Source of the DNA: Siphonodentalium dalli
Taxonomy: Eukaryota; Mollusca; Scaphopoda; Gadilida; Siphonodentaliidae
Assembly: GCA_032622095.1 (NCBI GenBank)
Contig: CP136069.1
Location: forward strand, 86,760,958-86,824,957
Direction: 5' to 3'
Length of the DNA stretch: 64,000 nucleotides
Under the pieces are notes generated by a model that ran no database searches, had not been told where the DNA came from, and saw only the letters and a program-made list of their open reading frames with translations. Positions 5,819 to 64,000 of the stretch are shown piece by piece (the first letter of the stretch is position 1; the number at the start of each line of letters is the position of its first letter). A program made the translations under genes and the position numbers.

Positions 5819-6088
<270 letters not shown>

Positions 6089-24004: not shown

Positions 24005-24945
24005 TTAAATTCTGTCATTTGGCGGTGGACCTCGCATTCCAGTGTTAATTTCATACAAATACATAGGCCTGACATCATCACAATTAACTTCCTCATGATT
24101 GCTTGATGAGGAATTACCAAACTCTGATCCTGAAAAGTCATTTATGTCTTGAAATCTACGTCGAGTATCAATGCCGGGTTGAGTGTTGAATTCATGACAC
24201 CGCAGTTGAGAATCCATGGATGGCGACCCAGTCCAATTTGCCTGATTGCTGGGGTCAACAAGTCCATCAATTGTTTTAGGCACATTAAAGTAACTTTGCA
24301 TAGGTTGTGGTTCACTATCGTTTGTGTCCTTAGATCGGCTCTCACTATTATTACTCAGATGTGGTTGAGATAATATTCCTGAATTGGAAACAATTGGTTT
24401 ATGATCAGCGACATCGGACCCCATTAATGATCCTGATATTGTATTATGTCTTTTCCAGGCAAACACAGTTTCATATGGAAGCCTTAGCCATGATGCTACT
24501 TCCGAAACTGAGTTGGTTACTAAAAGTTCTTCCGCTAGTTTTTTTTCAGCCACAGACATCCCTGAGTCTCTGGATATATTAGACATTTTATCGACGCCAT
24601 CCTGACACGATTCTGAGGTACCTTTCTTGTAATTTGATTTTGTACCTCTCATTTGGTTAGGAATAGGCAAATGTGTTCTATTTCTATAAATTGAGTCATA
24701 TGATGGTGTTTCATCAGTGTTTGACATGAAGATCTCTGGTCGAGAAAATTGGTTTACTTGACCACAAACTTCTGTATTCCTTGTAATTCCAGGAGAATCA
24801 CATTCTGTATTGGATGAAGCCGGGATGGACACTTTGTCAGGAGAATCAAGCTTGTCGGAAACAGGTTCTTCATCACTGTCCAAACAAATTACATCTTCTT
24901 CTTTCTTGATGGTAAAGAGCACCTGGTGTGTTTTTGGCAATGATC
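24005..24945 (-). CDS. BTB-HTH gene, terminal coding exon (HTH 6, SUMO motifs)
   Basis: An acceptor TTTATAG|GA is followed by an open frame of 312 codons to TAA. The exon needs one base from the previous exon, matching the phase-1 donor at 25712. It opens with TIKKEEDVICLDSDEE: a psi-K-x-E sumoylation-type site (IKKE) immediately followed by a hydrophobic-acidic SUMO-interacting-type motif (VICLDSDEE). About 130 codons in is a sixth helix-turn-helix, from MSVAEKKLAEELL through SVSEVASWLRLPYETVFAWKR, with the leucine/tryptophan spacing of Psq/CENP-B HTHs. The rest is Ser/Asn/Asp-rich and probably disordered. A nuclear DNA-binding role is inferred from the domains; no ortholog is named. Confidence 0.85.
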
Positions 24946-25059
24946 CTATAAATATCAATTAAACAATTACTATTTTAATCATGTCTAACAAAGGGTAGTA
25001 TCACTAAATTCACCATCTGGGACCATATTCTGAAAATGAAAGACTCGAGTTATCATCCA

Positions 25060-25330
25060 GACAACGAAGTAATCGTCAAAATATATACCAAGAAGGCGGA
25101 TAACTCTCATAAAATTTATCAACCCCATGTTCGAACTTGACCTCTATTTTCATGTGATTGATTACCAAATTAAATTTTATAGCAATCAGATAACTATAAC
25201 TAAAGGTTTCATCTGCCTATCAAAATAAACATCAAATTCTAAGTCGAAAGCAGGCATAATTCTATCAGACATACTTGGACTGAGACAAAATTCATATTTG
25301 ACTTGTAATTTCAATAATTCCAAGGTCGCG
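25060..25330. repeat. Diverged 'CATAACTCT'-type repeat fragment
   Basis: Intronic text resembling the molluscan-style modules at 57480-57935 ('GGATAACTCTCATAAAA', 'TTCGAACTTGACCT', 'TTCTAAGTCGAAA'). No coding. Confidence 0.45.
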
Positions 25331-25427
25331 CAGGAACAGTATTTTATATTAAAAGGAACGAAACTATCGCATAAGGAAAAGGCATGTGTATTAAGCAAGC
25401 TGTTCTCTGTTCGTCAGCACAAATCCC

Positions 25428-25603
25428 TATTGGAGACTCGCATATATAAGAGAATGCACTGGCTTACGAAGTCGAGGTAAATTTTGTTAGGCCAATGCAT
25501 TCTCTTAAATATGCAAGGCTCCCTATGGAAGACTTGCATATATAAAAGAATGCATTGGCACAGGGTTTTTGCAAAATTTCAGGAAGCTCTAGTCATGGAA
25601 GTG
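25428..25603. mobile_element. TTAA-type MITE family B, left-truncated copy
   Basis: Keeps part of hairpin 1, the linker, all of hairpin 2 and the right end before TTAA (25604-25607). The left end is missing. It sits about 100 bp downstream of the exon 12 donor in an intron of the BTB-HTH gene. Confidence 0.75.
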
Positions 25604-25711
25604 TTAAAATTCTGGTCTCATTGTCCTCCGGTTGAGGTTAATGTCATCTATGGTGTGTGACGTCAAAGTGATTTGGCTTATGTGGAGACAATGAAAAAGA
25701 TTTAGACATAC

Positions 25712-25920
25712 CTTTTTTATGTACAGTAACCGCTCTATTTGTCAGACTTTTTGTTATACTAGCTACATGGTTTCGAGCTTTTCTTCTCCATAAGTGTAGA
25801 GTTGCAACTGGAATGTTTATCTCAAGTGATATCTCAGTCAACTTTTTGCCATCTCTGATCATCTGCATCGCTTCTTTCATTTCATCATCTGAATACTTCC
25901 TTCGTTTTCTTTTCTTATAG
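25712..25920 (-). CDS. BTB-HTH gene, exon 12 (HTH 5 with basic stretch)
   Basis: Acceptor GTCTGCAG|C and donor AAAG|GTATGT bound a 209-nt exon entered with two bases of a codon already used and left in phase 1. It begins YKKRKRRKYSDDEM, a lysine/arginine cluster suitable as a nuclear localisation signal and often found N-terminal to a Psq/CENP-B HTH. The HTH follows: MKEAMQMIRDGKKLTEISL then INIPVATLHLWRRKARN, giving three helices with the expected TL-x-x-W recognition helix. It is the only HTH exon entered in this phase. The same entry phase is supplied by the donors of exons 1 and 3, so direct BTB-to-exon-12 splicing is possible. Confidence 0.85.
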
Positions 25921-25976
25921 CTGCAGACAATTTAAAGGTTGATTAGAGGAATATACAAGCTTTGATACAGTGTGTC

Positions 25977-26345
25977 TGTCATTTGCAGAATGAGGTCCCC
26001 AGAGGGTATATTTAGTGACACTATCCCGCATGGCGGCTAGAATCACCAAATTCACCCTCTGGGTACCTCATTCTGCTGAGGGCTCAACTGCTATGGGAGT
26101 CCTAGGATCAGATTGAAGTTCCCCAGTTGATGTTGTTGATGGTCACCCATGAGTCACCTTGATTATGCAGTTTATCTTCTGCAAATTAGGGGGGAAGAAA
26201 CAGAAGGGGAAAAGTAACAATGTTGATTTGAGACCATAGATACTTCCCATAAGATGAGGCCTTATCAGAATGAGGTCCCCAGAGGGTGAATTTAGTGATG
26301 CTAACCAGCTGTGCAGGATAGCAGCAATAAACTCACCCTCTTGGT
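25977..26345. repeat. Family D inverted-repeat element, copy 2
   Basis: Paired ends at 25977-26080 (GAATGAGGTCCCCAGAGGGT then ACCCTCTGGGTACCTCATTC) and again near 26268-26345, with the internal text 'GAAGTTCCCCAGTTG' and 'TTGATTATGCA' also seen in the copies at 27742-28040 and 55298-55692. Confidence 0.65.
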
Positions 26346-26514
26346 TTGAATGAACCATGTCTGTTTAATATAATAATGTGAATTGGTCGATTGTGGTTCG
26401 GAATAACAGTGGCATAGTTAGACCCAATTATTGGTAGTCAAGAGTATTTTGTTTCCTTAGAAAGGTGAGTTGTAATTTAAATGCTATATTTTTGCAATCA
26501 GGTCTGAAAATATG

Positions 26515-28040
26515 TGCCAGACATTTGTAGAATGAGTTCCCCAGAGGGTGAATTTAATGACCCTACCCCACACAGCAGGATAGCATCACCAAATTCATCA
26601 TCTGGGGACCTCATCAGGCCTCAGCTCACAAGGCGACTCGGGCGAGATTGTCGCCTTACTGTCGCTGACTTCGCCTTATCGTCGCTCTAAGGCGAAATCG
26701 AAGTCGCCTTCAATTTTAGGGGGAATTTTATTTTATTTTTTTATTAAGTTTTTTTTCCGGACATGTCTGGACATGTCCGTATATAGATGAATTGTGGCGG
26801 CCATCCCAAAAAGAAACAGACGATGCAGAGCCAAAGACCCAAGTGTTTAAAATAAAAAAATAAAATATGACCTATTGTTTTGTGTTGTTCAGTATTCCGT
26901 CGCCTTTGTTCCCTTTGCGGTAATGAATGTTAATCACGAATGTTTTGACACACTGAAAACACGATGAGATGTTCGCATCTGTGTTGTTACTGACCATCGT
27001 GAGTGTCACAAATAAATGTTTTAATTAACTTAAAAGACCGCCGTCCCGCTTTTCAGATATAAAACAATTACGACATTATCAGAGTATGTACCAGGCGCTT
27101 CGGAAGTTCGTTTCTGACTTTTTGAAGAGACCGCGTCGGACTTTTTGAAGAGACCGACTTCCGTAAATAAAATAATGTCAAGTTTATTGCTTTAATCGGA
27201 TTATACCAGTGATGTTGGCATTAATTAAGGGAGGCCATTAATTAATAAAAGCTTTTGCAACTCCTTTGTTAGTTAGTCCTTATTGTTTATTTTAGCGGAC
27301 ACCCCCATTACAGCCGTGACCAAATTAAACTTAAAAAGTTACATGCATCATGATTCAGACTGTACAAACGTATCTTCCAAGCTGCAGTCTAGGAAATAAT
27401 ACTACTTTCATTTAGTTAAAAAAGTTACTATTTACTGTAACTTGATAATTGTCTTGCTTAAATGATAGCTACACAAAACATTTCCAAAAATTTTAAATGT
27501 ATAATAACAATTAATTAAGCTAATTTCAGATAAAGTCAAATTTTTTTAGTTTTATTTGTTTAATATTTTATCTTTTTAAATTTGTTATTGTCAGATGTTA
27601 TAAAATAAAGCGATATTTGAAAATTGTCAATTTTTGGTAGTCTCCCCACCCTGAAGTCTCCCTAAATTTCCTGAAGTCTCCCTAAATTTCCTGGAGGGAG
27701 ACTTCAAGTCTCCCTGTTCTGGACCCCTAGGCTGAGGCCTGGACCTCATGCTGCATGGCTTCTGCTATCGGAGCCCTAAACTCAGATTTAAGTTCCCAGA
27801 TGGTGAAGTTGGTGATGTGTACCCATTGGGCACCACGATTATGCATCATGTCATCCCCCATTTGGGGATGCAAAGAAACCAAACTAAAAACAAACAAAAC
27901 TTTCTAAAAAACACTTTTTTGAAAATAAAGATAATTTCCAGACAAGATGAAGCCAAAGCAGAACAAGGTCCCCAGAAGGTGAATTTGGTGATGCTGACAC
28001 TCAATGCGGGGTAACATCACTACATTCACCCTCTGTGTAT
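26515..28040. repeat. Family D element copy 3, split by a hAT-like insertion
   Basis: Left part 26515-26614 has the GAATGAG...CCAGAGGGTGAATTT end; the right part 27742-28040 resumes the family text after the insertion at 26615-27741. The insertion duplicated the family D word GACCTCAT. Confidence 0.65.
26615..27741. mobile_element. hAT-like non-autonomous element with AGGCGA/TCGCCT motifs
   Basis: Starts CAGGCCTCAG and ends CTGAGGCCTG, flanked by the 8-bp duplication GACCTCAT (26607-26614 and 27742-27749). The left subterminal region is crowded with AAGGCGA and TCGCCTTA repeats (26630-26710), typical transposase-binding-like arrays. 1,127 bp, no ORF of note. Confidence 0.85.
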
Positions 28041-28295
28041 AGGCCATTTTACAGATAGCGAGAATGATGCATTGTGGGCCAGAAAGTATCCAAACAAAGC
28101 CACGTGCTTTACGGCCGCATGCATTTACTATGGGGGATTTAGGGTGGGTCTATAAAACTAATTATAACTTTGGTATCTGTCATAGTTTATGCGAAAATTT
28201 TTAAACATATATCAGGGACATGTACCCCTTCATTTTGTAAATGTACGGCACCATATCTTGAGGCCTGTTTGCATTGTCATCTAATTAATACGTAC
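28041..28295. other. Intronic; no gene seen
   Basis: Unassigned intron sequence of the BTB-HTH gene between family D debris and the candidate exon 11. Confidence 0.35.
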
Positions 28296-28392
28296 TCTAT
28301 GTTTATGTTTTTAACTGAACTGTGATTTCTCATGTTCATTTGATGGTCAGAATGCACTGCTTTATCAGGAGTTACATCTTCAGATTCGTCAT
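28296..28392 (-). CDS. BTB-HTH gene, candidate exon 11
   Basis: Acceptor CATTGTAG|AT and donor AGA|GTACGT enclose 97 nt with exactly the phases needed to link exon 10 (leaves in phase 1) to exon 12 (enters in phase 2). The peptide starts DDESEDVTPDKAVHSDHQ and is acidic and polar, similar in character to the acidic start of the terminal exon. The donor is non-ideal and no domain is present, so this rests mainly on phase fit and composition. Confidence 0.5.
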
Positions 28393-28589
28393 CTACAATG
28401 TGAAATGGACTACAGATTACAATCCTGACACGCAAATAAACATAAAATTCTTCAGCAGGAAACGGTTCACGTCAAAGTGGCTGAATCCCTTCTTTTTGCA
28501 TGGTTTCATTCAAATAGTTACCAAGGAAGTATCAAATGTGCAAAAAGTCACACAGCATCTCAAAATCTAAAAAACAACATGATTTTAAA

Positions 28590-28693
28590 TTAGTCGTCTA
28601 TTAATTCTATTATTACAATCATTGTTTGTTTGTGATTTTCGAGTGAAATTTCAAAGGCATTTGAATGTATATTCTGCCCGCTTTCAGTATTGA
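28590..28693 (-). CDS. Possible alternative terminal exon
   Basis: A good pyrimidine-rich acceptor (TTCCGTTCTTCTGCGGCAG|TC) opens a frame entered in phase 1, the phase left by exon 10. It runs 34 codons to TAA and ends QTMIVIIELIDD, which matches the hydrophobic-then-acidic pattern of a SUMO-interacting motif. No in-phase donor is obvious before the stop, so it would be a shortened C-terminus. The frame stays open upstream to 28862, but no better acceptor is seen. Could be chance. Confidence 0.35.
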
Positions 28694-28878
28694 CTGCCGC
28701 AGAAGAACGGAAACTTTGAGATGTTGGGTGGCCATTTTTTGCACAATTTGAAGATTGTGCATGGAATTTTACATGTTTGGAGTTCCTGGGTAGCTTTTTG
28801 CATGAAACAATGACCGATTCAGCATCAATATGTGGGTTTACAAGCATACAAAGAAATAGCATAAAACAAATAAATTAA

Positions 28879-28979
28879 CCCTTTCAGTGCCAAGTCCGAT
28901 TTTTGTATCGACCCATATTGACCAAAAATGATCAAGGAAATATGGGTTGATACAAAAATCGGACTTGGCACTGAAAGGG
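28879..28979. mobile_element. TTAA-type hairpin MITE, family C
   Basis: 101-bp near-perfect palindrome, CCCTTTCAGTGCCAAGTCCG to its inverted copy, flanked by TTAA (28875-28878 and 28980-28983). The central loop is only a few bases. CCC ends plus TTAA fit a piggyBac-like non-autonomous element. The left end of the chimera at 18309 is the same family. Confidence 0.85.
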
Positions 28980-29179
28980 TTAAAAGATCAACAGAAGTTT
29001 TTTTTTATTTACTGTATTGTATCTACGAGTAAAAGAAATTATCTTTGAATGTCACAAAAACTCAACAAAAACAAACATGAAAGTGTCAATGACACTGTAG
29101 CTCAACTTAGGTAGGGGAATAATTTAATGGTTTACAGTAAATGGAGAAATAGGAAAGATGCTGATTGAAATGTCTTACC

Positions 29180-29545
29180 TTTGCCAAAGGATTTAGTCAT
29201 GCAAAGAGTTTTTTGGCCGAACGACCCCAAAATGACTCGTTCCGATCTACATGTCAATATTAACATCCATGACAAATTTCATGAAGATCCTACCAAAGGT
29301 ACGACCTGCAGCCCGCACCAAAGGATTTAGTCATGCAAAGAGTAAAATCCAAGATGGCTGCTGGTGGCCATGTTTTTTGGCCGACAGACCCCAAAATGAC
29401 TCGTTCCCATCTACATGTCATTATTAACATCCGTGACAAATTTCATGTAATTCTGACCAAAGCTACGACCTGTAGCCCGCGGGAAAGAATTTAGTCATGC
29501 AAATAGTAAAATCCAAGATGGCTGCTGGCGGCCATGTTTTTCAGC
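29180..29545. repeat. Satellite-like array 2 ('AAGATGGCTGC' units)
   Basis: Just over two units of the same 165-bp module as at 13700-14670, with 'GATTTAGTCATGCAAAGAGT', 'ATGACTCGTTCC' and 'CAAATTTCATG' landmarks. It lacks the closing module. Confidence 0.7.
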
Positions 29546-30390
29546 ACTCTTCTAAAACAGATTGTACCTAAATATGAACTCTTTAATGAATCTGTTATGA
29601 TTAGGTACGTGAAATAACTCATATAATTAGAGTGCTATATTGCCCAAACATGTACCTCCCCCCCTTGTTTTTGGAAGCAACATCCCAGGTGGTGCCATTC
29701 AATTCAGAATTGCGAGCGAACCGAGCAATTCTCTGTTCTTCATCCGTCAGTTCTAAGAATCCAGCCGATTTGAGATGCGAGGAGACTAACTCCCTCTCCG
29801 CCTTAGCGACATAACGACCTGCACTGGAGGAGGCCCACTCCAAAGATGGCAAGACAACCAACATTAAGAGTTTAACTAACTGCTGTTCACCAATGCAAAT
29901 GGCAGATAACCTGATGCCCAATCTGTGGCACAGGTATCAAATGGAGAGCCCATTAGCCCAAATGGGTTATACAACTATAAGCGAGTCAAGCCATCGGATC
30001 AGAGGGAGCCCCCACCATCGCATGCTGCAGGTGGTCATGCCCAAGCTAATATCCTGGCCAAGCTGGAGGGTGGGGAGAGGTCATTTTTCTCCGATCCCTT
30101 CACGGAGGAGTGGCAGGCAAGGCCGTGTCGGTAATGCGAGCGCGACCAGGGGGACTCGGCGCTTTACCTCATGGGTACGGCCCCTGCCCTACGCTTAAGC
30201 TAGGTGTCGATACGTACGCACGCGATTTTGGCAGCTTTAGCGCCCAGAACCGCTAGCGTCTGGTGGGGGCCAAATGGCCTGGAGGTCCCAAGTACCCCGG
30301 CAGCTCCACCAGATGTATCCCCACAAATTGGTTGAACCGTCGAGACGTAACCGGAGGAGCGTGAACTGGTCCTGCCCTTAGAACAGTTAT
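29546..30390. other. Unassigned, possibly retroelement-derived
   Basis: Minus frames give peptide stretches such as SAGRYVAKAERELVSSHLKS and DEEQRIARFARNSELNGTTW (29619-29921). They look coding in composition but match no family I can name with confidence; interrupted frames continue toward 31700. A decayed gag-like region is one possibility. Confidence 0.25.
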
Positions 30391-30394
30391 CACA

Positions 30395-30895
30395 CGTTCA
30401 CATGTCCCTGAGGTACCTATGTATCACAATATACACATTGCGTATATATATATATAAAATGATATAATATATATATCCGGGGGATATACATATTAAGTTT
30501 TCCTCATGAGACCATGTCAGAAGGCCCTTCCAAAGCTGCGCCCATCAATCTAATGGCGGAGCCAGATCACAGCTCCCTGTCATGATCCAACGTATCACTA
30601 AATATAGATATACAACCCCACAGAGAACATGTCTCATGTCTCTGAGGTACCTATGTATCACCGTTTCACAAGATATCATTGCAGAAACCCGGTGACACAA
30701 ATCTTTCGCATATATAGATATATAAAATGATATAATAGATATATCATGGTGATATATAAGTAATCATGAGATCATGTCAGAAGACCCTACTAAAGCTGCG
30801 CCCAACAATCCAATGGTCGGAGCCAGAGCAGAGATCCCTGGCACAATCCAATGTATCATTAAAGATATATATATAGCCCCTCAGAGAACATGGCC
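30395..30895. repeat. Two tandem copies of a ~250-bp unit
   Basis: Copies at about 30395-30622 and 30632-30892 share 'CTGAGGTACCTATGTATCAC', a TATATA/GATATAATATATAT tract, 'GACCATGTCAGAAG', 'AAGCTGCGCCCA' and 'CAGAGAACATG' in the same order. Function unknown. Confidence 0.7.
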
Positions 30896-33732
30896 GAACA
30901 CCGCAGGTGACCAGAGCATCCAATGAGAAAGCAAACCGCTACTCTCAGGTGCCAAAACAATAGTGTCGGTACGAGTATTAATTTTGGAGAAATTTCCCAA
31001 CGAGCACCATCCTTTTGAATGGAGACAGACAGCAAAATGTGCAATCACAAGTATTATGTTCAGCCTAAATCCACACACATTACTATTATTAGGCCATCAC
31101 GACCACTAGGCACCTGAGAGCAGTCCGCGTTCCCAGCGGAATACCCACCGCGATCCGATTCTAAGAAATGAAGGTGCGCCTTCTACAACCGAAATCAGTT
31201 CAAATGATGTAAAATGTAGTCAGATGATGAACACAGGTAAATTTTCACGGTCACCATACGGAATATTCAGGTCTGAGCCTCTGCCCCCCCAAACATGCAG
31301 CAGAACGACCTAGGTGTGTGATAGGTCAGTTAGTGTGAAGCATGCAGCAAACTAGGGGAAGACCTGCTCTAAAAATGGCTCCCCTAGGAAGGAAACGAAT
31401 TAAATTATCATCCTCCTAGTAAAGGATACACATCCCTTTATAATGTTGTTTTATTTTAATTTGAAGAGCCAAGATAGAGAGGAACTCCCCCGACCTAAGT
31501 GGTCCCGCTTATGGCATGTTTAAGGAAGAGAGGACAGCATAGACCGAAATGCGCAGTTGGCAGCATGGCTTCAGGCCCTTATGATCGGGCATCTGTGCCA
31601 TGGGGATGGGATGCCACTCGAACGGGGTGGTCCCCTGCCTGCGTCTTAGGAAAGGTCGGTAATGCTGGTCAATGAGCTTCCTCGAAAGCTTATCTGGACA
31701 GCGCAAACTTCTTTGCCTGTTTTATTGTCTATGTGCCAGATAATCAAATTGATATGGGCAATAGAAGTATGAAGAGCCATGCTGATGGCCTCTTGTCGGA
31801 AAGGCTATTGGCAGTGGTCGTGGGACACATGGCAATATAAATGCTTTCCATGTAAATATGCTTCATTCGTGTGTGAAGTACCGGTATATTCGCCATATCA
31901 ACGGTATGAAAGGTCGGGACACGTATATATTTTAAAATTCATTGAGACTCCAACTAGTCCATGAATACATTCAAAACACCTACCATGCCCTTTATGAACA
32001 ATGCATGCTGTATTGGATGTACAGCCTGTTCTTGTACCAAGCTCACATTTGATATGGTTACTTGCCATAAATAATGTCTCCCCCCACCTTCCTCGTCTTG
32101 GAATACCACTGCTATTATATCGTTATTCATTGGGGAACGTCATCCAGGCCACGGTCGCCAGTTATTGCCAGTGGGCCAGTTACATGTACCTGGAGGGGTC
32201 AAGTCACCACGATTCTAATCGTAGTAACCCAGCCCCCCCCCCGCTTCTTTTCGGTAAACCTACACAGGAAGGAAAGCAATTATGTTTGTATTCCGGAAGG
32301 AGACACCATTTAGTCGAGAAACAACCCAGCAATTTTGAAAGGATGGGTTAATTTTGGATACAATTCAGAATAATAACTAAAATCTGGAATTGAGACAATA
32401 GTGAAACTGTCATCACGATTAATTTTAGTGTCATGCTTGCAATCATTAAATGCTAGCAGTTCAAAATTTTACAGTGAAGTTGAAGCACTGTACGAGAATC
32501 GAATCATGTACTCAACAGAATTCTGACTCCTGTCAGATGTCAATCCCTGTCTGAAATTAATGACACTTAACGAATCTTAGTACGACAACAGTCATTATTT
32601 TTCTGATATTGATAAACTGTAGTTTGATAACTTCAAGCGTCGACCAACACATCTAAATCATAGGAGACATGTGTGACAGTATTAAAACAGAAAACACAAA
32701 GTATTTTGTGAAAGCATGTTGTTTTGATGAGATCTAGTGACTCCAGTAGTGTTCTGTAACATGCACACACCTCGGTGTGTACATGGGTCAGCCATCAAGT
32801 TTTTATTGTCCACACCCGATCGCACAGCGTAGTGCACCCACGACAACATACCTGAACAAGTGTTGTAATGGGGAAAGTCGGCATTTGCATTCGGATTTTA
32901 TTCAGTAATCTCGAATGGGACTTGTTATAACACTTGTCCAATATCAATCTCTGTCAATTTATTAAAGTAATAATGACACTACTGTTTATACATTGATAAA
33001 CCCAGATGTAAATTGTAATCAACTTTTAAGTTCAAATGTGACCAACACATCTGTATCAGTTGTATTGAACCATAAAACAACAAAGTATTATGAGAAAGAA
33101 TGTTGTTCATAACATTATGATAGATAGCGTCAGTAGCGATGGTAATTATTGCTAAATAAATGTCCACACCTAAATAAATTCCCACGAAATTAGGAGACTT
33201 CCGGTAGCGAATCACGTGGCATTTATATCTGACAAATTATATCATACCTTATAGGTTCTATAATAATTACATAGATGCATTGCTCACAATAATCTATGCG
33301 CCTCGCAAGGCCTTGAAATGGCGGCTGATTATGGCGAAATGTCGATTTTCATATTCGAAATTTTTAAGTCAGCCGCCTTTTCGAAAACCCGGACAATTTG
33401 TATGTTTGAAGCGAAACGGTCCGTGAATTCGAAACAATAATTCTAAAAACTAACGCGTAGGCGACCAGTAATTATTGTATCGATAAATTGAATTTGTTGT
33501 CTAGTTGTTAAACGACAAATTCGGAAAAATACTCGTTCGGTTCGTAGCAGAAAATAAACTGGCGAATTCAGTCGGTTATATTGGGACTGCGCATGCGTGA
33601 CTAATCCGAGCAAGACCGCGAGGTATCGTAGGCGACCACAAAAAAGTTAACCCCTTTTCTACTATGGTTTTACAAACGCAGGACATCTATCCATATAGTT
33701 CAGTGTGAACGGCTTCTTTAGCGGAAATATCT
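30896..33732. other. Intronic; no gene supported
   Basis: Intron of the BTB-HTH gene. Several 60-116 codon ORFs on both strands (31509-31706, 31779-32351, 32979-33215) show no recognisable domain or splice-bounded structure. 33230-33620 has short near-complementary stretches that may be an old inverted-repeat element, but ends were not resolved. Confidence 0.35.
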
Positions 33733-34152: not shown

Positions 34153-34365
34153 CTGCTCCCTTTAAATTTCCTCTTTGTGTTATCAGAGTTTTGAGAGAAA
34201 TCTTGAGCTTTGCCTTTGGTATATGTTTGGAATATTTCCAGTTTCGAAGTGTACATAGTTTCACTCCTGTTATTTGAGATACGGCTGCCATACTCATCCC
34301 TCTTTTCATCAGATCTGCTGCTGCAGTTCGTTGTTCTGTTGTGTAGATTTTCCACTTAGACTGAC
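34153..34365 (-). CDS. BTB-HTH gene, exon 10 (HTH 4)
   Basis: Acceptor TTCCAAACAG|GT and donor GCAG|GTAGAG bound a 213-nt exon that begins and ends in phase 1. It encodes KWKIYTTEQRTAAADLMKRG, then MSMAAVSQITGV and KLCTLRNWKYSKHIP: a three-helix Psq/CENP-B-type HTH with the TL-x-x-W recognition helix. A lysine-rich tail (KAKLKISLK) follows. It is the sister of exon 9, produced by the local 1.3-kb duplication, and differs from it by a handful of residues plus a shorter tail. Open frame and splice sites are intact, so it looks functional. Confidence 0.85.
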
Positions 34366-37648: not shown

Positions 37649-37876
37649 CTGCTCCCTTTAAATTTCCTCTTTGTGTTATCTGAGTTTCTGATGTCTTTTG
37701 TGGATTTTTGTGAGAAATCTTGAGCTTTGGGATATGTTTGTTATATTTCCAGCTTCGAAGTGTACACAGTTTCACTCCTGTTTTTTGAGATACGGTTGCC
37801 ATACTCATCCCACTTTTCATCAGATCTGCTGCTATAGTGCGTTGTTCTGCTGTGTAGATTTTACACTTAGACTGAC
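37649..37876 (-). CDS. BTB-HTH gene, exon 9 (HTH 3)
   Basis: Same acceptor (CCAAACAG|GT) and donor (GCAG|GTAGAG) as exon 10; 228 nt, phase 1 in and out. Encodes KCKIYTAEQRTIAADLMKSG, MSMATVSQKTGV, KLCTLRSWKYNKHIP, then a lysine/asparagine tail five residues longer than in exon 10. It is a Psq/CENP-B-type HTH for DNA binding (family inference). The phase-1/phase-1 structure means it can be added, lost or skipped without changing the frame, which fits it being a cassette. The only striking oddity is Cys in place of Trp just before the first helix. Confidence 0.85.
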
Positions 37877-47151: not shown

Positions 47152-47271
47152 CAACATTGACTCCAGTTGACTTGGCTATGGTAGCCATATCCTGTCCAGA
47201 TATGATTAGCGATATGGCTTCTTCGCGCTGCTTATCATTATACTTTCTTGGGCGGCCACAGGTTTTCTGTT
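47152..47271 (-). CDS. BTB-HTH gene, exon 7 (HTH 2, split)
   Basis: Acceptor CATTTAG|AA and donor GTTG|GTTAGT define 120 nt in phase 1 at both ends. Encodes EQKTCGRPRKYNDKQREEA, ISLIISGQDMATIAK, STGVNV. The GRPRKY start is an AT-hook-like basic lead into a Psq/CENP-B HTH. The exon stops just before the recognition helix, where TL-x-x-W is expected, so that helix must be supplied by another exon that I could not identify. If spliced straight to exon 9, the fold would be incomplete. Homology to the other HTHs in the gene is clear from the GQDMATIAKSTGV / GMSMATVSQKTGV match. Confidence 0.85.
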
Positions 47272-50406: not shown

Positions 50407-50674
50407 CTTTCTGGTTGACAGGATTCATAGATATGTTCTTGGATTGTGTTTCACTCTGCTCAGTGTTCACTTCCTCATTTCCAGAACTTGAGAAATTTTT
50501 CTTTCTCATACCTTCTTGAGTGCTATTATGTCCTGCTTTATTTTTCCATTCCTGCAAAGTTGCAGAAGGTATACCGACTAATCGTGCCAGTTCTTTGGGG
50601 CGTGTTGTGTCTAACATACTGATAACCTCTGTTCTGTCAATATTAGGGTAACGATCCATACCAGACATCTTGGA
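50407..50674 (-). CDS. BTB-HTH gene, exon 5 (HTH 1)
   Basis: Acceptor AATATTTTAG|TCC (phase 0) and donor AAAG|GTAACT (phase 1) bound 268 nt. Encodes SKMSGMDRYPNIDRTEVISML, then TTRPKELARLVGIPSATLQEWKN: a compact HTH with the ATL-x-x-W recognition helix, closest in pattern to HTH 5. A lysine- and serine-rich linker (GMRKKNFSSSGNEE) follows. The exon receives its frame from exon 4, which also ends in phase 0. The internal Met could serve as a start in a shorter transcript lacking the BTBs, but no promoter evidence was found. Confidence 0.85.
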
Positions 50675-53035: not shown

Positions 53036-53078
53036 AGGCTTGACTTCCATTCTAAAGCTACTCAGTATTATAATTTAC

Positions 53079-53301
53079 CTTTGGTGTATGATCACTTCTC
53101 GGTCCAACTGAATCAACAAAAGAGACAGTCTTGCTGGATTCAGATGAACTTGACACCACAGTGCTGCTTTCTGGTACAACAGCTGAATTCTCTTCGACCA
53201 TTTCCGCCTGATTAGGAGTGCAATCTGGTCTGATTTCTACACTGATTTTCTCCTGTGTTTCTGTTCCCCTTCCAACCTGGCATGGACTATCTGTTGAATA
53301 C
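53079..53301 (-). CDS. BTB-HTH gene, exon 4 (acidic/Ser linker)
   Basis: Acceptor ACAATCTTTTCAG|G and donor CAAAG|GTAAAT bound 223 nt. It enters after two codon bases, matching the donor of exon 3, and leaves in phase 0, matching exon 5. The 74 residues run YSTDSPCQVGRGTETQEK ... EENSAVVPESSTVVSSSSES ... and are Ser/Glu-rich without a domain: a linker between BTB and the first HTH. Confidence 0.8.
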
Positions 53302-54390: not shown

Positions 54391-54394
54391 TCTA

Positions 54395-54560: not shown

Positions 54561-54584
54561 AACTTGACAATTCGGCCATATTAA

Positions 54585-54813: not shown

Positions 54814-54861
54814 TTGAAGGGGAAGGTTGCAGCTGGACGTTTCTATATAAAACTGACTTAC

Positions 54862-55256
54862 TGTACACTTTGTTGGTCTTTTTGGTTCTGTACATCACTT
54901 TTTGGTTGTCCTACATCAACATTGATACACATTGAGCAATCTATGTAAGCTGGCAGTGAATGAAGGTTCACATCAACCGGACAAGGAAGAAGCGAGTTGC
55001 CATGGCAACTATGGTAATCCTTGTTATAAGATAAACAAAACTGTTCCAATCCAACAACGTTCACCGATTGATTAATCTTCCAAATGTCCAGGCAGTTCTC
55101 GCTTGTCAATGAAACTCTTCCATCATACATGTAGCTTACCACTGCGTTGACTGCTTCCATACTTACATCATCTGGTAACTTAATGTCAATGAATGGACCA
55201 TTGAATATAAACCTGTCACCTAGATTACAAGCAGCTTGCATTACAATTTTGTGAAG
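54862..55256 (-). CDS. BTB-HTH gene, exon 3 (second half of BTB 2)
   Basis: Acceptor GTTCTTTTCAG|CTT (phase 0) and donor TACA|GTAAGT (phase 2) bound 395 nt. Encodes LHKIVMQAACNLG, then IDIKLPDDVSMEAVNAVVSYMYDG, then SLTSENCLDIWKINQSVNVVGLEQFCLSY, the central and C-terminal helices of a BTB/POZ domain, a dimerisation and co-repressor or Cullin-3 adaptor fold (family knowledge). The post-BTB tail (HSLPAYIDC...VDVG) parallels that of exon 1, so both BTB exons descend from one duplicated unit. The final phase 2 allows splicing to exon 4 or, alternatively, directly to exon 12. Confidence 0.92.
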
Positions 55257-55297
55257 CTGAAAAGAACAAAATAGCTGTGTTGACAAGCCTGCAATGG

Positions 55298-55692: not shown

Positions 55693-55799
55693 CAATATTT
55701 GCAGGCTTGTATGTTGAATGCATAAAGAAGAGCTGGAAATCATTTTCATAGTTTTAAATACTAATCTCTAAACCAAAGTGTTATGATACTCATTTAAAT

Positions 55800-56827: not shown

Positions 56828-56963
56828 CTTAACTGTGCCATTCTGATGGATCCAGATAGCATCACAAAGTATGTTATTTCTCCACATATTACCAAGTCGA
56901 GACATCATCCGAAGAGAGTGACTATTATCAATATAGAGGCTTGCAGCGAAGGAGCCAGTAGAT
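56828..56963 (-). CDS. BTB-HTH gene, exon 2 (first half of BTB 2)
   Basis: Acceptor ATTTCTTTCAG|A and donor TTAAG|GTAAAA bound 136 nt. Encodes STGSFAASLYIDNSHSLRMM, SRLGNMWRNNILCDAIWI, HQNGTVK. The HSLR..SRL...CD pattern is the N-terminal helix and first strand of a BTB domain, and joins in phase 0 to LHKIVMQAACN of exon 3 at the usual 'HK-VL-A' point. The acceptor expects two codon bases from upstream, exactly what exon 1 (63672-64000) provides. There is no in-frame ATG before the BTB in this exon, so an upstream exon is required. Confidence 0.9.
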
Positions 56964-57110
56964 CTGAAAGAAATTTGTAACATAATATGATCCATTAACA
57001 ATTTTGTGAATCCCACATTCCAATCACCCCCAAAATTGGCCAAATCACATGAAAAGCTGAGAAATCAAAACATGTTCAGCGATGTATTCAGGGTTCCTGA
57101 CCTCCAGTTA

Positions 57111-57300
57111 CAGTAATGCTCTAAATAATCGACCCCTTAACCACAGCAGAATTATGGGTAACTTTTCAGGATTTAGTCGGAAATATGGCTTGTTGCCATT
57201 CATCGGAAAGCTCTCCCTGAGAGCTTTCGGATGAATGGCAACAAGCCATATTTCCGACTGGAGAGCTTTCCGATGAATGGCAACAAGCCATATTGTTTCG
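57111..57300. mobile_element. Hairpin MITE family A, rearranged (three arms)
   Basis: Starts TA|CAGTAATGC; left arm, a partial right arm (to 57256), then a second partial right arm (57260-57295). The outer end of the right arm is missing. Confidence 0.75.
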
Positions 57301-57479
57301 GAGGACAGTCAGAAATATATATATATGCAACTCGCGATGTCCCGTTCTTTATGATACATTCACAAGAGAATATATGCAGCTCATTGCTCTTGTCAATATA
57401 TAATAAAAGGCCGTCCGGCCACAGTGTCCTCTGAAAAAGTGGCTTCATTTGGGGCATCAATTTGATTGAGATATGATCA

Positions 57480-57935
57480 CACAAACTAAAGTTATCATCC
57501 GGAAACCAGACATTGACAGGATTCTAAGTCGTAAAAGGGCCATAACTCTCACAAAAATGGGCAGGGAAAACCCATATTCGAACCTGACCTGTATTTTCGG
57601 CTGATAAACTATCATACTAAATTTGATTCAGATATGATCACACAAACTGAAGTTATCATCCGGAAACCAGAAAATTACAAGATTCTAAGTAAAAAAAAAG
57701 GGCCATAACTCTCGCAAAAATGGGCCGAGCAAACCCATATTCGAACTTGACCTGTATTTTGGTCTGATAAACTCAACTATAAAATTTGCTTTTGATCTAA
57801 TAAACCAAACTAAATTTATCATCCGGAAACCATTTCCAGACGCACACACGGACGGATGGCTAGACGGACGGGCGGTACGACGGACGGACGGACACCGGCT
57901 ATTTTAATAGTCCCCCGGGGGACAATTATATTTAA
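57480..57935. repeat. 'GGGCCATAACTCTC' tandem modules with GACGGACGG tail
   Basis: Three modules each with 'CATCCGGAAACCAGA', 'GATTCTAAGT', 'GGGCCATAACTCTC', 'CCATATTCGAAC'. They end in 'GACGGACGGGCGGTACGACG' and then 'CCCCCGGGGGAC'. A widespread molluscan-type dispersed repeat (inference). Confidence 0.6.
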
Positions 57936-58190
57936 TAGAACATCGCGAGCCGTGTATAATGATGAACTAACAACATATATTGAAAAGAACAATGCGCTGC
58001 ATATATTGGCAAAGTAACTGCATATAATGACGAACTAACTGCATTTATTGACTAACTAACTGCATATACATGTATTGACACAAATTAGCTGCATATATTG
58101 ACCAATTAACCACATATATTGTAAAAGTAGCTGCATACAATGGCAAATGAGCTATATATTGATATATTAATAAGATATATTGCATGAGCT
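57936..58190. repeat. Diverged 'AACTGCATATATTGAC' tandem repeat
   Basis: Irregular units of about 28-30 bp alternating ACTAACTGCATATA and TTGACAAA-like text. Confidence 0.5.
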
Positions 58191-58193
58191 TAA

Positions 58194-58624
58194 AGATGCA
58201 CAATCCGAATTAACGCTCCTAAATTACTATTTCTTTGGCTTCAGGGGTGAAAAATATTTCATTCGAGTCGAGGAACCCATCCATCAAAGCTCAGAGTTAA
58301 CAGATATCTATTTTTGAAATCTGTTAGAGTTAACAGATATCGATTTTTGAAATCTGTTATTTTTAACCACCTGGTATATTTAAGGCCTGGCAAATATTCG
58401 ACGAATGCCGACTGACATACTCTCGATACCAAATTGCTTCGGAACAAAATGTTGATATATAACACTTTTTGCTGCTTTTGGGGCAATGTTATACTGTAGT
58501 TGACAGTGGTTAGCATTATTTTTTGTCAATTAGTCGATACTGATAAACTGAAGCGGCATTTCAAGAAATGTTGTTGTTGTTGGAATTTGATGATATGGGG
58601 ACACTTGAATCGGATTGTGTGCCT
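58194..58624. mobile_element. TTAA-flanked MITE, family O, copy 2
   Basis: Starts AGATGCACAATCCGAATTAA and ends AATCGGATTGTGTGCCT in inverted match, between TTAA at 58190-58193 and 58625-58628. Matches 18667-19111. Confidence 0.75.
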
Positions 58625-58775
58625 TTAACATAAGTCAGCTGTGGCGTTCCATTGCTATGATGATGTTCTGATGGCGGTGACGATGACGGGCGGCAACGAT
58701 GGTAATGATGACAATAATGCTGCTGATGATGTGCTGATGATGGTGGTGATGATGATGATGATGGTGAAGCCGATG

Positions 58776-59632
58776 GTTATATTGTGTCGCAAGGATTATA
58801 GGATTTCATTTCTATCCAATAATGCCATTTTTTAGTATATTTTTCAATATCGTTTCCATGGTAACAGGTATTTCTCATGGTATTGGGCATTTTCGGCAGT
58901 TTAATCAAAATGCATTTTAAGTAGACCTATGCAGCTATTTCACTACGCATAAATTATTACTGTTACCAATGTAGTACATGTACCTAATAAATGTTCCAAT
59001 TACAAAATTATTGCATTTTTGGTAAAAATCACCATTTTCACCACAAAATGGCAATAAAACCCTTATAACCTATATGTGCATCCTGTTTAATAGTGGTTGG
59101 AACATAGTTATGGTTGAAGAAGGGTTTGAGACATCTATAACGCGTTGCAATATTATGTTTTGCTTCATTACACGCTTTAAATGTCCGGTTTATGGACAAA
59201 ATTTCATTATTTCTGATTATTTGACGAAATTTGGTCCGTTTCCATGACGACAGCTGAATAAACCTCAACAGTGACCCTATGAAGAAGTCTGGATTAAAAG
59301 TGCATGTCATAGAAAACAAATTTCAGAAAGTTATATTGTGTTGCAAGGGTTATTGGACTTCATTTCTTTCCAATAATGCCATTTTTTGTATTTTTTCAAT
59401 ATCGTTTCCATGGTAACAGTTATTTCTTAGGGTATTGTGCCTTTTCGACAGTGTTATCCAAATTAGTTTGAAGTACCCGTATGAAGCTATCACAATATGC
59501 ATAAATTATTACTGTAACCAATGTAGTATCTAATAAATGTTCCAATTCCAAAATTATCGCATTTTTTGCAAAAATCAACAGTTTTTACCCCAAAATGGCA
59601 ATAAAACCTGCATAACCTATATGGGCATCCTA
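58776..59632. repeat. Direct duplication of a ~300-bp unit
   Basis: Units at 58776-59085 and 59330-59632 share 'TTATATTGTGT', 'CAATATCGTTTCCATGGTAA', 'TACCAATGTAGTA' and 'CACAAAATGGCAATAAAACC'-type text in the same order, separated by about 245 bp. 58660-58770 is a GATGATG-rich tract. Confidence 0.7.
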
Positions 59633-60077
59633 GTAACTACTGGAGTAGTTGGAAAATAGTTATCGTGGAAAAATAACATCAAGAAATTATCTTCAACATA
59701 TGTTTCTGTCCTGGAATGTGCTTAAATTCTTTTTTACTGTCTGCTGAAGGGTTTTTTCTCAAAATGCGTCTACATTGTTTACATGCCGTTTCCATGACAA
59801 CGGCACCACTTTCAAAGTTTACAGCAGGGCCGAACATGAAGCTGACATCTTTCATATGATCTATAATTTTTCCGTGTGTAAAAAAAAATTAAACTCGAAA
59901 AATAAGCCCTGTTGGGGCCAAGACCGCTCCTCTATTAGGGCATTACTGTACAACAACAAAATCTAATTTAAATTAGCACAGTTTTATGCTTTGTTCAGCA
60001 TAATAAAATGGTCAAAACCTTCAGTATTCTAACAGTTAACCCTTTCATGATGGGAGCTATGCTGGTGCAGCATTTAA

Positions 60078-61955
60078 CCCTTTGAACCCTGGCTCCCCAC
60101 AACGATCGACGCCATGACCCTGGGCTCCCAGTGTTATTTTTGAATTATTGTAGACTGTGTTCAGGCGCAATCTGTTGGTTCTGTTTAAGTGATGCCACAG
60201 ATCTGAAACTTTACATGTATGTTCCCCATGGACCACTGAGTATTTTTAAGATCGGTATACATTGCCACACGATCACGCCCTGGCAACGGTTGCTATGCAA
60301 CTACCCGAAATTTAAAGTAAAATGCAATTATAGCTTTTATCGATGTATTTCAGCCCCAGGAAATGGCGTTTTCAATGCAGCCAATGCCCCATTGTGAAAT
60401 TTTATATCTATTATATATTTTGAAAGATCTGTGTGTGTGTGTGTGTATGTGTTTGTTTGTGTGTTTGAAATCGATGGACTCCAAAACGACTAAGCCAATT
60501 CCGATGAAATTTGGTATTTGGATGTGTTTTCGGCCGGAGACGAACATAGGCATATTTATTTGTCCGTGCGAGGTCAACTTTTCACGTGCGGAGGTCAAAT
60601 CTATTTTTACGCCGTTTTTGCGCTAATATATTTCAGTTCGGTGCTCACAAATCGATTCGATATAGCGCGAATAATAAATTGCCAGTCATATAATTTGCAC
60701 GGTTAGAATCTGTGTGGCTTCATCTTTCCAACGATATATAATATGTATGTATCCGCTTTAGTTATCTGCCTCAATTATTAGGTACAAGTGGTACGGGGAT
60801 CTTTTATCAGGATAAAATCACTGCGTAACTTCTGACGTCGTCAGAGGTCATAAAGTTAGATTACGTTAACTCTCACCCTGCCGATGCATTTGACTGTGTC
60901 GCGTTAACTCATCACCGGACGAGGTATCCGCAAATGACATTGGGCTATATATCTCGGAAACGGGTGTAGCTATCGACTTGAAATTTGGTATGTGAATGTA
61001 TCTTGCCCCGGATACGAATTTTATCGGGTCGCCGAGCACGTGCGACACCAGCTTCGCGCATGCGCAGACCAGATCTAGGAAACGGGTGGAGCAATCGACT
61101 TGAAATTTGGTTTTTGAATAGCCCGGACGAAGTCGGGTCACCTTCTAGTATATATATATATGGCCAGATGAGTGAGTCTGACTTTTGTTTATAGAAACAG
61201 TTGCTAAGCAGATACCACAAATAATTCAATGACACATTGCCCTGAGCATTCAATTGTATTATGCCCCATTTTAGACATTTCATAGGCGCGTTTTTCCGAA
61301 ATCACATGACGAGCATTTCGGTTGGTCTCGTTGACAATCAACTACCAGAGTGCATCATCCCTTTGGGTGTACTGTCCACACTTATTGAAGTTGGTACATT
61401 CTTTGGTCCCGGCATCTCTTTCGGTGTAAAGGTATGTGTAACAAACAAATTTGTGTCCCTTTTCCAGGTATGGACATTATGATCATCGTGGCTAATTGCA
61501 GGTATGAAGACACGCCCCCCCCCTGCCATGCCCACTACCTCGACATAAGCTCCGCCGACTAACACAACACCTCAACTGCCCCATACATTGATCTCTTGCC
61601 GAAACAATGCCACCCGCTGCTGGAGCAACTGACGTCTGAATCTCTCCCAGTGCCACTGTGCTTTCATTCTCCCATTTTAACTCTCAACTGCTGTATAGTC
61701 ATCATCTAAATCTTCCGCGTCTGATTCCAAAATTTGTCGGACCACCACTACCGAAAATGTTCTAGGCTTCATAATTCATGATGTTGTGTGTTTAAGCACA
61801 ATAGCAACAAGATACAAACAAAAACATAATTATTGGAGAAGCAGACGACCATGTGGCGGTCGGTATACAGCCGGTTCAGCGGCCAGTATACTGGCCGCTT
61901 GGATATTTGGAGGTTCACGCTGCGGCCGGTCTTCCGGCTGCTCGAGTTCAAAGGG
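60078..61955. mobile_element. piggyBac-like non-autonomous element inserted in a MITE
   Basis: Ends CCCTTTGAAC / GTTCAAAGGG flanked by TTAA (60074-60077, 61956-61959). The empty site is known from the intact family B copies, which have a single TTAA (GCAGCATTAAAGATCC) at that point. 1,878 bp; interior has a GT-repeat (60430-60470) and two blocks of 'GAAATTTGG' text, but no transposase. Confidence 0.85.
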
Positions 61956-62041
61956 TTAAGATCCTGAGCCAGTGCATTCTCTTATATATGCGAGTCTCCC
62001 ATAGAGAAAGCGCTGGCTAACAAGGTCAAGGTAAATATTGT

Positions 62042-63065
62042 TTTTTTATTAGGGGTTTGGGAAGGGGATCCCGGGAGGATTTGAATGGGCAGTATGCCCT
62101 TTCCTACAACCCACTTAAATGTGATAGATGAATCATGAAATGGTTAAACATTTGACATGAAGGTGAAATGAATATGAAAAAAAAGATGATCTAGATATTA
62201 TGATTTTTTTTTCCTGTTTGCTGTTGTTGTGTTGTTGTTGTTGTTGATTCCATGGCATCTATCTGCTGACGGTGAGCTTTACTGTCCTCAATCATCTGTT
62301 TTGATGAGGCTATGGATTCCTGTGCAGATCTTATGAGTTCTTGTGACTCAGCGGATAGATGGCTGATGTTGTTGCTGGTGCTACTAGTCCAGGTGTTGTT
62401 GTTGTCGCTGCCCGTGGAGATGGGGGACACCGGGTTTAGATGGAATTCCGGTGTCCGAGGTGGTAGAGTGTCCATCTCCACATCGAAGCTGGCGGCAGGC
62501 ACGTCCGGGGTGGTGTCGGCATCCCTGTCTCCGCTTGCCTCAATGACGACGGCAGGGACATCCGGGGTGACAACAGCGTCCCTGCTAGCTGGTGAGATGT
62601 CGTCAACAACCGCTTCAGCAGCCAAGTGGGGGGAGCTGGAAGACTCTCAGCTCGCCCCTGTCTCCACTTGGCTCTTCTTTCGGCATCCTTTCTCATCCTG
62701 GAGGGAGTCTTCTTCTTCCGCCTCTTCTTCTGCTTCTGGTCCAAGTCGCCATACCAGATGGTAGGTCCCTGGTGGAGTCCAGCTTCCGAGGTACCGCCAG
62801 CAGAGCCTCCTTTAGCCTGGGCTAAAGGTATCCACAATGTGCAATCTATCCAAGGCCGCGACCACAGCAGAGGGGATTAGCTGCATAATCCTCTGCCAAG
62901 TCCAGTCAACAGCTCACTCCGAATCGCTCGGGCGGCTAAGTTCTTTTCAGAACGACCACACGACTCACAAGCGATCCGGGCTCAGCTAGCCGGAACAACG
63001 ACAAGATGCAGAGCGAAACTTTGCAACCTGCCCGCTCAACAGCTAACGAATGAATATAATTATAT
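62042..63065 (-). mobile_element. 1-kb retroposed element carrying only a gag/ORF1-like reading frame
   Basis: Perfect 9-bp target duplication AAATATTGT (62033-62041, 63066-63074), placed in the linker of the family B MITE. The plus-left end TTTTTTATTAGGGG is, on the minus strand, an AATAAAAAA tail, so it was inserted by target-primed reverse transcription with the coding strand minus. No reverse transcriptase is present. Confidence 0.8.
62191..62840 (-). pseudogene. ORF1/gag-like frame, frameshifted
   Basis: The upstream part (62837 down to about 62640) encodes a basic stretch, KKKTPSRMRKDAERRAKWRQ, of the type seen at the start of retroelement ORF1 or gag proteins. The frame then shifts to the 144-codon ORF ending at 62191, which is Ser/Thr/Asp-rich, contains SAESQELIRSAQES and ends with a Gln run. 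The pieces belong together only with a frameshift near 62630, so the copy is probably inactive. The exact element family is not recognised. Confidence 0.5.
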
Positions 63066-63237
63066 AAATATTGTTAGGCCAATGTATTCTCTTATATATG
63101 TGAGGCTCCCTATGGGAGACTAGCATATATATGAGAAAGCATTGGCACAGGTTTTTCACAAATTTCAGGTAGCTCCATTCATTGAAGTGTTAATTCACAA
63201 AATAATGTAAACTAATTAGCCACAGCAGAATTATGAC

Positions 63238-63480
63238 TGGTGCTTCCTGAAATTTTATGAAAACCCTGTGCCAATGCATTCTCTTATATATGCGAGTCTC
63301 CTATAGGGAGCATCATATATATAAGATAATACATTGGCCTAATAATATTTGCCTTGACCTTGTAAGCCAGTGCATTCCCTTATATATGCGAGCCTCCATA
63401 TGGGAGACACACATATATAAGAGAATACACTGGCACAGTGTCTTTAATGCTGCAACAGCACAGCTCCCATCATGAAAGGG
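63238..63480. mobile_element. TTAA-type MITE family B, left-truncated
   Basis: Two hairpins, linker and right end CATGAAAGGG before TTAA (63481-63484). On the left it abuts a family A arm fragment (CCACAGCAGAATTATG at 63221-63236). Confidence 0.75.
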
Positions 63481-63484
63481 TTAA

Positions 63485-63671
63485 ATTAAAAGAAATAACT
63501 ATTGATAAGATAATGGTTATAACCAAAATGATTGAAGACAAATTTACAATAAAGATGCGCATTATAAAATTTATCTTTAAAACATATTGGATACAACTAA
63601 ATATCCTTACTAGCACTAGAAACAATACAAATTTCTCTTTTAAGTACATAATAAAACATTGCGGGACTCAC
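63485..63671. other. Intron start below exon 1; nothing recognised
   Basis: Short AT-rich intron segment. Confidence 0.4.
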
Positions 63672-64000
63672 CCTACAGCATCTAAACTCAAACACTGTGT
63701 GTACATAGAAAGTGAATGATCTGACTCCGGATAATCTTCTGAAAGCAGTGAAGAGCCACACTTCTCTTGGTAAACTTTGTTGAACGCCAAGCAGCAATGA
63801 TCCAATTGGTCGATCTTCAGTAGTTTGTTGATACTCCAGATATCCCGGCAGGTATCACTAGTCAGTGTTACTGTACCATCATATATGTAGGAGACCACTG
63901 CTCTCGCCACCTTCTGGCTTACTTGGTTCATTGAACTAAAGTCTATGAATGACTCCTGAAACACTGCATTTCCACCAATGTTACAGGCAGCCCGTAGCAC
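63672..64000 (-). CDS. BTB-HTH gene, exon 1 of window (second half of BTB 1; partial)
   Basis: Runs off the window edge and ends at the strong donor TAGG|GTGAGT, leaving in phase 2. Encodes VLRAACNIGG, then VSQKVARAVVSYIYDGTVTLTSDTCRDIWSINKLL (as two stretches), then DQLDHCCLAFNKVY: the second half of a BTB/POZ domain. It aligns along its whole length with exon 3, including the region after the BTB (SLL...HSL..Y..C....VG), so the two exons are paralogous duplicates. Exon 3 starts only three codons before the equivalent point, so this exon's acceptor should lie about 9-12 bases outside the window. Its phase fits exon 2 exactly, giving a tandem-BTB protein, or it belongs to an adjacent paralogous gene. 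Confidence 0.85.

Follow-up and report, generated by a model that had tools for sequence, protein, structure and literature searches.

BTB domains of the type considered here pair and recruit cofactors, and helix–turn–helix (HTH) domains of the class considered here bind DNA. Pipsqueak carries four psq repeats and, to our knowledge, the known BTB-HTH factors carry a single BTB. Passages of PMC11426971 describe human BTB transcription factors as carrying C2H2 zinc fingers almost exclusively, and the insect BTB-Pipsqueak proteins (Pipsqueak, Bric-a-brac) as combining a BTB and an HTH in one protein. In a mollusc, the BTB-associated CENPB-type factors of Octopus join a BTB to a CENP-B-type HTH, according to passages of PMC10027918. 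Two tandem BTBs are reported in RhoBTB and in BTB-ankyrin proteins, and those of RhoBTB may pair within one chain (passages of PMC1257465). In Drosophila lola, a BTB part is followed by many exons that encode DNA-binding modules (passages of PMC1947980). In this study, a window of 64,000 nucleotides from Siphonodentalium dalli (C9:86760958-86824957 of a 2.23-Gb, nine-contig assembly) was analysed together with 40 kb past its edge; C9, which bears the window, and C3, which bears a paralogue, are labels for contigs of the same genome. We believe that the minus strand of the window probably holds one gene of about 46 kb, which would encode about 1,098 residues with two BTBs (BTB1 and BTB2), a linker, six HTHs (HTH1-HTH6) with spacers and a tail that carries a sequence resembling a SUMO-interacting motif (SIM), and whose product would be a nuclear, multivalent DNA-binding reader.

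Compared with the insect BTB-Pipsqueak proteins, this locus has two BTBs instead of one, and its HTHs are unmatched by HTH_psq and lie in separate cassette exons. The FxLRWN motif, by which passages of PMC11426971 define the TTK-type BTB, was not seen by eye in joined BTB1 or BTB2. For the Octopus factors, neither a tandem BTB nor an HTH array is mentioned in the passages of PMC10027918, and the HTHs here fall below the CENP-B_N cut-off where listed. In contrast to RhoBTB and the BTB-ankyrin proteins, HTHs follow the BTBs here; a GTPase or ankyrin part was not seen, with exons upstream of 70429 being possible. On C3, an in-frame stop lies immediately before the likely start at BTB1, and on C9 the ATG at 70399 opens into BTB1; no GTPase-aimed search was made. 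The variable exons of lola are alternative C-terminal exons and mostly encode zinc fingers (passages of PMC1947980), whereas those here are internal, symmetric HTH exons. In open-access literature text, no description of two BTBs with an HTH array was found, and predicted orthologues may well exist unnamed in eukaryotic protein databases. The gene product is most likely a new variant among BTB-HTH factors.

Minus-strand frames were read, candidate exons were scanned against Pfam, and splice sites were scored with simple, hand-written weight matrices. A phase-consistent model of 12 exons was obtained, 11 of which touch the window; a previous sequence-only reading had counted thirteen. When joined, the exons give 3,297 bases and 1,098 residues with the sole stop at the end, and GT-AG borders were present at all 11 introns. 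The exons, domains, open frame and candidate splice sites were observed directly, and we infer that the whole chain is transcribed. The exons, with their entry and exit phases, are as follows in window coordinates:

70399-70274 (about 6 kb past the window edge), minus strand: exon 1, ATG and first half of BTB1; exits in phase 0.
63672..64000 in the window (full exon 64012-63672), minus strand: exon 2, second half of BTB1; phases 0 to 2.
56828..56963, minus strand: exon 3, first half of BTB2; phases 2 to 0, with a C3 counterpart of the same phases; no Pfam match when scanned alone.
54862..55256, minus strand: exon 4, second half of BTB2; phases 0 to 2; Pfam BTB 6.3e-5.
53079..53301, minus strand: exon 5, putative exon with a Ser/Glu-rich linker; phases 2 to 0; no Pfam match and no convincing C3 match (best E 0.37).
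50407..50674, minus strand: exon 6, HTH1 (50525-50659) and linker; phases 0 to 1; reciprocal best with C3 HTH1.
47152..47271, minus strand: exon 7, HTH2 (47156-47260), truncated at the donor; phases 1 to 1; Pfam HTH_7 2.3e-5.
37649..37876, minus strand: exon 8, HTH3 (37725-37868); phases 1 to 1; Pfam matches below cut-off.
34153..34365, minus strand: exon 9, HTH4 (34214-34357), duplicate of exon 8; phases 1 to 1; Pfam matches below cut-off.
28296..28392, minus strand: exon 10, short linker, the least certain exon; phases 1 to 2; no convincing C3 match (best E 0.56).
25712..25920, minus strand: exon 11, HTH5 (25764-25907); phases 2 to 1; Pfam HTH_7 5e-4 and HTH_Tnp_1 1.4e-3, both below cut-off.
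24005..24945, minus strand: exon 12, terminal, entered in phase 1; a 317-aa open frame with the SIM-like VICLDSDEE, a psi-K-x-E motif, a Ser/Asn-rich stretch, HTH6 (24431-24568) and the stop.

The BTB halves and HTH exons lie on the minus strand where the sequence-only reading had placed them. Plausible splice sites with consistent phases lie at the ends of the exons it had given as 63672-64000, 56828-56963 and 54862-55256. Its half BTB1 is what the window contains, and the domain becomes whole with the first exon past the edge. All six of its HTHs were located, and HTH2 is incomplete. As for its SUMO motifs, only one psi-K-x-E (IKKE) and the one SIM-like sequence were present in the terminal exon. 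The open reading frame 29936-29622 was considered as an extra exon and rejected; its end is shared with stop-broken DNA in the C3 locus.

The joined exons 1 and 2 matched Pfam BTB at 1.8e-10 (41.4 bits, cut-off 20.5; profile positions 2-105 of 110), whereas exon 2 alone reached 7.9e-4 (20.0 bits), just below the cut-off. Joined exons 3 and 4 matched at 2e-7 (31.6 bits; positions 3-105 of 110). A BTB profile search had been suggested earlier, and both domains exceed the cut-off in the joined translation. Because joining across predicted introns raises both BTB scores, the result supports the gene model. A phase-0 intron splits both BTBs at a matching place, in the C9 and C3 genes alike, as expected if a two-exon BTB unit was duplicated; the BTB pair probably arose in this way. 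The best PDB sequence matches of BTB2 were the transcription-factor BTBs ZBTB17 and BACH1. In the genome search with the exon residues of BTB1 (E<=0.001), 8 places were found, namely the 4 BTBs of the two genes and 4 others at 29-37% identity. Only the best candidates were scored in the genome searches, so absence elsewhere is not proof.

On sequence grounds, the strongest support for a single gene is the colinear paralogue on C3. This gene (plus strand, from about 187650740) has BTB1, BTB2 and then eleven HTHs in order. Beyond its HTH1 and HTH2, the HTH exons are:

187713716, 187718521, 187728242 and 187748262 (or 187748367), plus strand: best acceptors of the next HTH exons.
187753430-187754231, plus strand: exon holding four HTHs.
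187755924, plus strand: last HTH exon (HTH11).

The shared BTB exons and the HTH order were observed directly. All four BTB exons have the same phases on C3 and C9, BTB-BTB-HTH1-HTH2 follow one another on C3 as they do on C9, within about 40 kb, and the first and terminal HTHs of the paralogue are the reciprocal best matches of C9 HTH1 and HTH6. The terminal HTH of C3 closes a 1,137-aa open frame (C3:188637022-188640432, minus strand) with the SIM-like IDLDSDDE near its start; C9 HTH6 scored 108 with it, and the next score listed was 53. In the 20 kb after the BTB-bearing C3 copy, no terminal HTH was found, and a 100-N gap lies there at 187774616-187774715. The C3 gene likely has twelve HTHs. 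Its chain is incomplete between BTB2 and HTH1, where no phase-compatible exon was found: HTH1 is entered in phase 0, but the candidate that precedes it ends in phase 2. A composition search for Ser/acidic exons gave five rows on C3 and three on C9 for the coding strands, and none on C3 and two on C9, both antisense to the terminal exon, for the opposite strands. One row (54932-55019 of the C3 piece) has the expected 1-to-2 phase, and the search missed the C9 linker exon 28392-28296. Since a second gene has the same plan, the layout has the appearance of a real gene family in expansion and not of a chance chain of open frames. The earlier claim of a single tandem-BTB, multi-HTH gene is well supported by the colinearity of the paralogue and by the uninterrupted joined frame; transcription of the chain is predicted from the DNA.

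Outside the C9 and C3 clusters, the HTH queries matched, among the candidates scored, no more than a tandem pair at C9:188.6 Mb and some fragments (C3:188.49 and 188.77 Mb); the HTH5 query matched only the C3 clusters and C9:188.6 Mb. The pair consists of two near-identical HTH frames 4.3 kb apart (C9:188593501-188600500, offsets 1638-1922 and 5930-6220, plus strand). It is related to HTH3/HTH4 and C3 HTH2, and no close BTB relative was listed nearby. C3 HTH1 and HTH5 are also copied in C3:188493001-188499500, where the copy of HTH1 diverges before its end and looks broken.

All frames of 20 aa or longer in 104 kb of C9 and 130 kb of C3, read on either strand, were searched with an HTH profile. 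The search gave 17 domain matches at an independent E-value below 0.01 (6 on the C9 minus strand and 11 on the C3 plus strand) and zero on the opposite strands; the profile was iterated on these loci themselves, which makes this enrichment partly circular. A first pass with six seeds recovered five non-seed exons with values between 5.5e-9 and 4.6e-5, and a further one at 0.0025. In that pass, the C3 four-HTH exon (0.6) and C3 HTH11 (0.22) could hardly, if at all, be told from chance rows (0.44 to 0.9), and they joined only after iteration. The four-HTH exon is backed independently by Pfam HTH_28 (1.5e-6; 28.6 bits, cut-off 25). The HTHs are highly divergent: in 16 of the 17 first found (truncated C9 HTH2 omitted), the sole invariant column is a tryptophan near the end, and the C3 terminal HTH, found later, is without it.

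Some Pfam HTH-family cut-off is exceeded by 5 of the 14 HTH exons scanned. C9 HTH2 reached 24.9 bits with HTH_7 (cut-off 23.8), and C3 HTH2, C3 HTH5 and the C3 four-HTH exon reached 27.9, 24.5 and 26.2 bits with HTH_Tnp_1 (cut-off 24.1). C3 HTH4 exceeds the cut-off of Terminase_5 only. By these matches, the HTHs resemble transposase-type HTHs (HTH_Tnp_1, HTH_7, HTH_28). The locus had been likened to Pipsqueak, and the likeness of plan (a BTB with several HTHs) stands. It does not extend to the HTH family: of the 42 genomic matches of HTH_psq (PF05225) at E<=0.001, 0 lie in C9:86.76-86.83, C3:187.65-187.79 or C3:188.49-188.77. Membership of the psq family was rejected, as HTH_psq matches none of the clusters. 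The suggested searches with HTH_psq and CENP-B_N gave no psq row in the exon and joined-domain Pfam scans, and CENP-B_N stayed below its cut-off of 21.2 wherever listed (best 18.1 bits, C3 HTH3; C9 HTH1 14.1 bits).

The PDB profile matches of the HTHs were weak, with bacterial GerE (0.0053) ahead of CG11849 (E 0.0066) and CENP-B (0.0099). A model of HTH5, for which the four remaining intact HTHs of the window served as alignment, showed three helices with a mean predicted local distance difference test score of 75. Structure comparison gave Z 6.8 to 2r0q and 2rn7, 6.7 to Tn3 resolvase and 6.1 to Tc3, and homeodomains reached 6.3. These matches spread over resolvases, Tc3, paired and homeodomains, and indicate the broad trihelical class only. 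Foldseek gave no match at E<=0.001; LCoR and CENP-B were among the rows without significant E-values.

HTH3 and HTH4 lie in a recent duplication that spans 1,316 aligned columns at 89.8% identity, introns included. HTH2, HTH3, HTH4 and the linker with HTH5 are each frame-neutral, and whichever of them are skipped (15 combinations), the frame remains open as far as the stop. Of the 13 non-terminal HTH exons of both genes, 11 have their best donor in phase 1, while C3 HTH1 and the four-HTH exon do not; HTH3 and HTH4 do not count as independent cases. Frame-neutral cassettes suggest that the array grew by duplication of exons, and the isoforms may be combinatorial. C9 HTH1, HTH2 and HTH6 each score best with their C3 counterpart, in the same order. 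The HTH2 pair is not reciprocal: other HTHs outscore truncated C9 HTH2 as matches of C3 HTH2. The nearest relatives of HTH5 are a C3 HTH5 copy and C3 HTH3, and C3 HTH7-11 are nearest one another. This pattern is consistent with separate multiplication of the middle cassettes of an ancestral BTB-BTB-HTH gene.

The C9 and C3 BTB exons differ more at third positions than at either of the other two (dN, nonsynonymous divergence, 0.39-0.55; dS, synonymous divergence, >1 or not computable). The second half of BTB2 shows 44, 34 and 72 differences at the three codon positions, an excess that speaks for the gene model. Over the six exons compared, dS to the paralogue was >1 or not computable, that is, saturated. 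Among young duplicates, dN/dS was about 0.7 for HTH3/HTH4, about 1.9 for the C3 HTH5 copies (eight changes) and about 0.7 for the C9:188.6 Mb pair. Between HTH3 and HTH4, the exon differs at 20 of 213 and the introns at 65 of 1,054 aligned sites, which is not significant (p=0.098). Positive selection on the HTHs was not shown, given too few changes and this exon-intron p value. The young cassettes may be under weak constraint.

Several observations weigh against one intact gene with six working HTHs. The model is a prediction from genome sequence, and several splice choices are weak or not the best scoring. The HTH1 acceptor is weak (4.2); the phase-0 acceptor of HTH2 scores 5.8 against 5.2 for the phase-1 acceptor used; acceptor 28424 of exon 10 scores 7.9 against 6.3 at 28392, but breaks the phase chain; and acceptor 24804 of the terminal exon scores 7.0 against 6.0 at 24945, both in phase 1. 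The start at 70399 is assumed, and a strong acceptor at 70429 makes further upstream coding sequence possible. The frame of exon 4 runs into a stop just beyond the donor, so a BTB-only product is possible. HTH2 ends at donor 47152 without its last helix, and its frame stops right after the GT; a pattern search of the HTH2-HTH3 interval for a completing exon gave four rows, none convincing, and the truncation could be partial decay. No Pfam HTH-family cut-off is exceeded by 9 of the 14 HTH exons, by the C3 terminal frames or by the C9:188.6 Mb frame. The dN/dS of young HTH copies is near or >1 on few sites (0.14/0.20 and 0.048/0.026). When the linker exons of C9 and C3 were compared by tblastn, 46 rows resulted (23 on each strand), none convincing, with a best E of 0.26 when the C3 self-match is set aside. 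The C3 terminal exon is known only from the 1,137-aa frame in an inverted block about 0.9 Mb from the BTB-bearing copy. The inverted copies of the paralogue's HTH part (C3:187.71-187.77 and 188.64-188.70 Mb) are 98-99% identical over the larger aligned pieces, introns included, and represent either a recent duplication or an assembly artefact.

Such points bear on three other explanations. One locus might produce many isoforms, with constant BTB exons spliced to varying HTH cassettes and no protein with all six HTHs. The neutrality to the frame of the cassettes after HTH1, which are 1-to-1 in phase, the prevalence of phase-1 donors and the precedent of lola (passages of PMC1947980) agree with this. 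Symmetric phases, however, follow equally from exon duplication, and the internal HTH exons have a candidate acceptor and donor on both sides, unlike the alternative 3' exons of lola. We regard this explanation as possible, though doubtful. It is improbable that two or more neighbouring genes lie head to tail, a BTB-BTB gene followed by one or more HTH genes. The 46 kb span with long, repeat-bearing introns, the stop beyond the exon 4 donor, and a C3 inverted copy with HTHs and a terminal exon in which no BTB was found would suit such an arrangement; the phases nevertheless chain from BTB2 through the linker and HTH1 to the terminal exon, and the BTB-BTB-HTH1-HTH2 order is conserved on C3.

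The C9 gene might also be a decaying or relaxed copy, with C3 as the working gene. The shortened HTH2, and an HTH3/HTH4 exon no less diverged than its introns (p=0.098), would be accounted for in this way, but the entire 1,098-residue frame is open although dS to the paralogue is >1 or saturated. We consider decay of the C9 gene unlikely. The explanation that we prefer is the single gene with two BTBs and six HTHs. Its HTH array would have been built by duplicating frame-neutral exons, and the protein would act in the nucleus. The BTBs may recruit cofactors and pair, either inside one chain or between two, and the HTHs may bind DNA multivalently. Clustered sites would then be read, with a role as a repressor or an architectural factor. 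Multivalent binding of clustered sites, as proposed in the sequence-only reading, is a plausible prediction.

Other features of the window are separate from this gene. An exon of an ordinary phosphoglucomutase gene lies on the same strand as the double-BTB gene (5816-6088, minus strand; Pfam PGM_PMM_I 2.2e-11, PDB phosphoglucomutases to 9e-24). A retroelement-derived reverse-transcriptase open frame lies at 3106-4122 (minus strand; Pfam RVT_1 1e-22). At about 62390-63055, there is a repeat of about 650 bp, of which some forty copies were listed, 74-90% identical, across all nine contigs. Scans of the window gave no Rfam match at gathering scores and no tRNA.

A double BTB followed by an HTH array that is exon-modular and expands would represent a novel way of building a multivalent DNA-binding protein. 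As a speculative and rather less than even proposal, the two genes form a family in which a tandem-BTB head precedes an evolvable array of frame-neutral cassettes, with six HTHs on C9 and eleven or twelve on C3; the array would grow by exon duplication and be spliced combinatorially. If this is true, a single locus could yield a multitude of multivalent DNA readers, the HTH arrays being the counterpart of arrays of zinc fingers and possibly tracking fast-changing genomic repeats. With such a family, it could be asked if exon duplication and isoform choice also shape DNA-binding arrays that are not made of zinc fingers.

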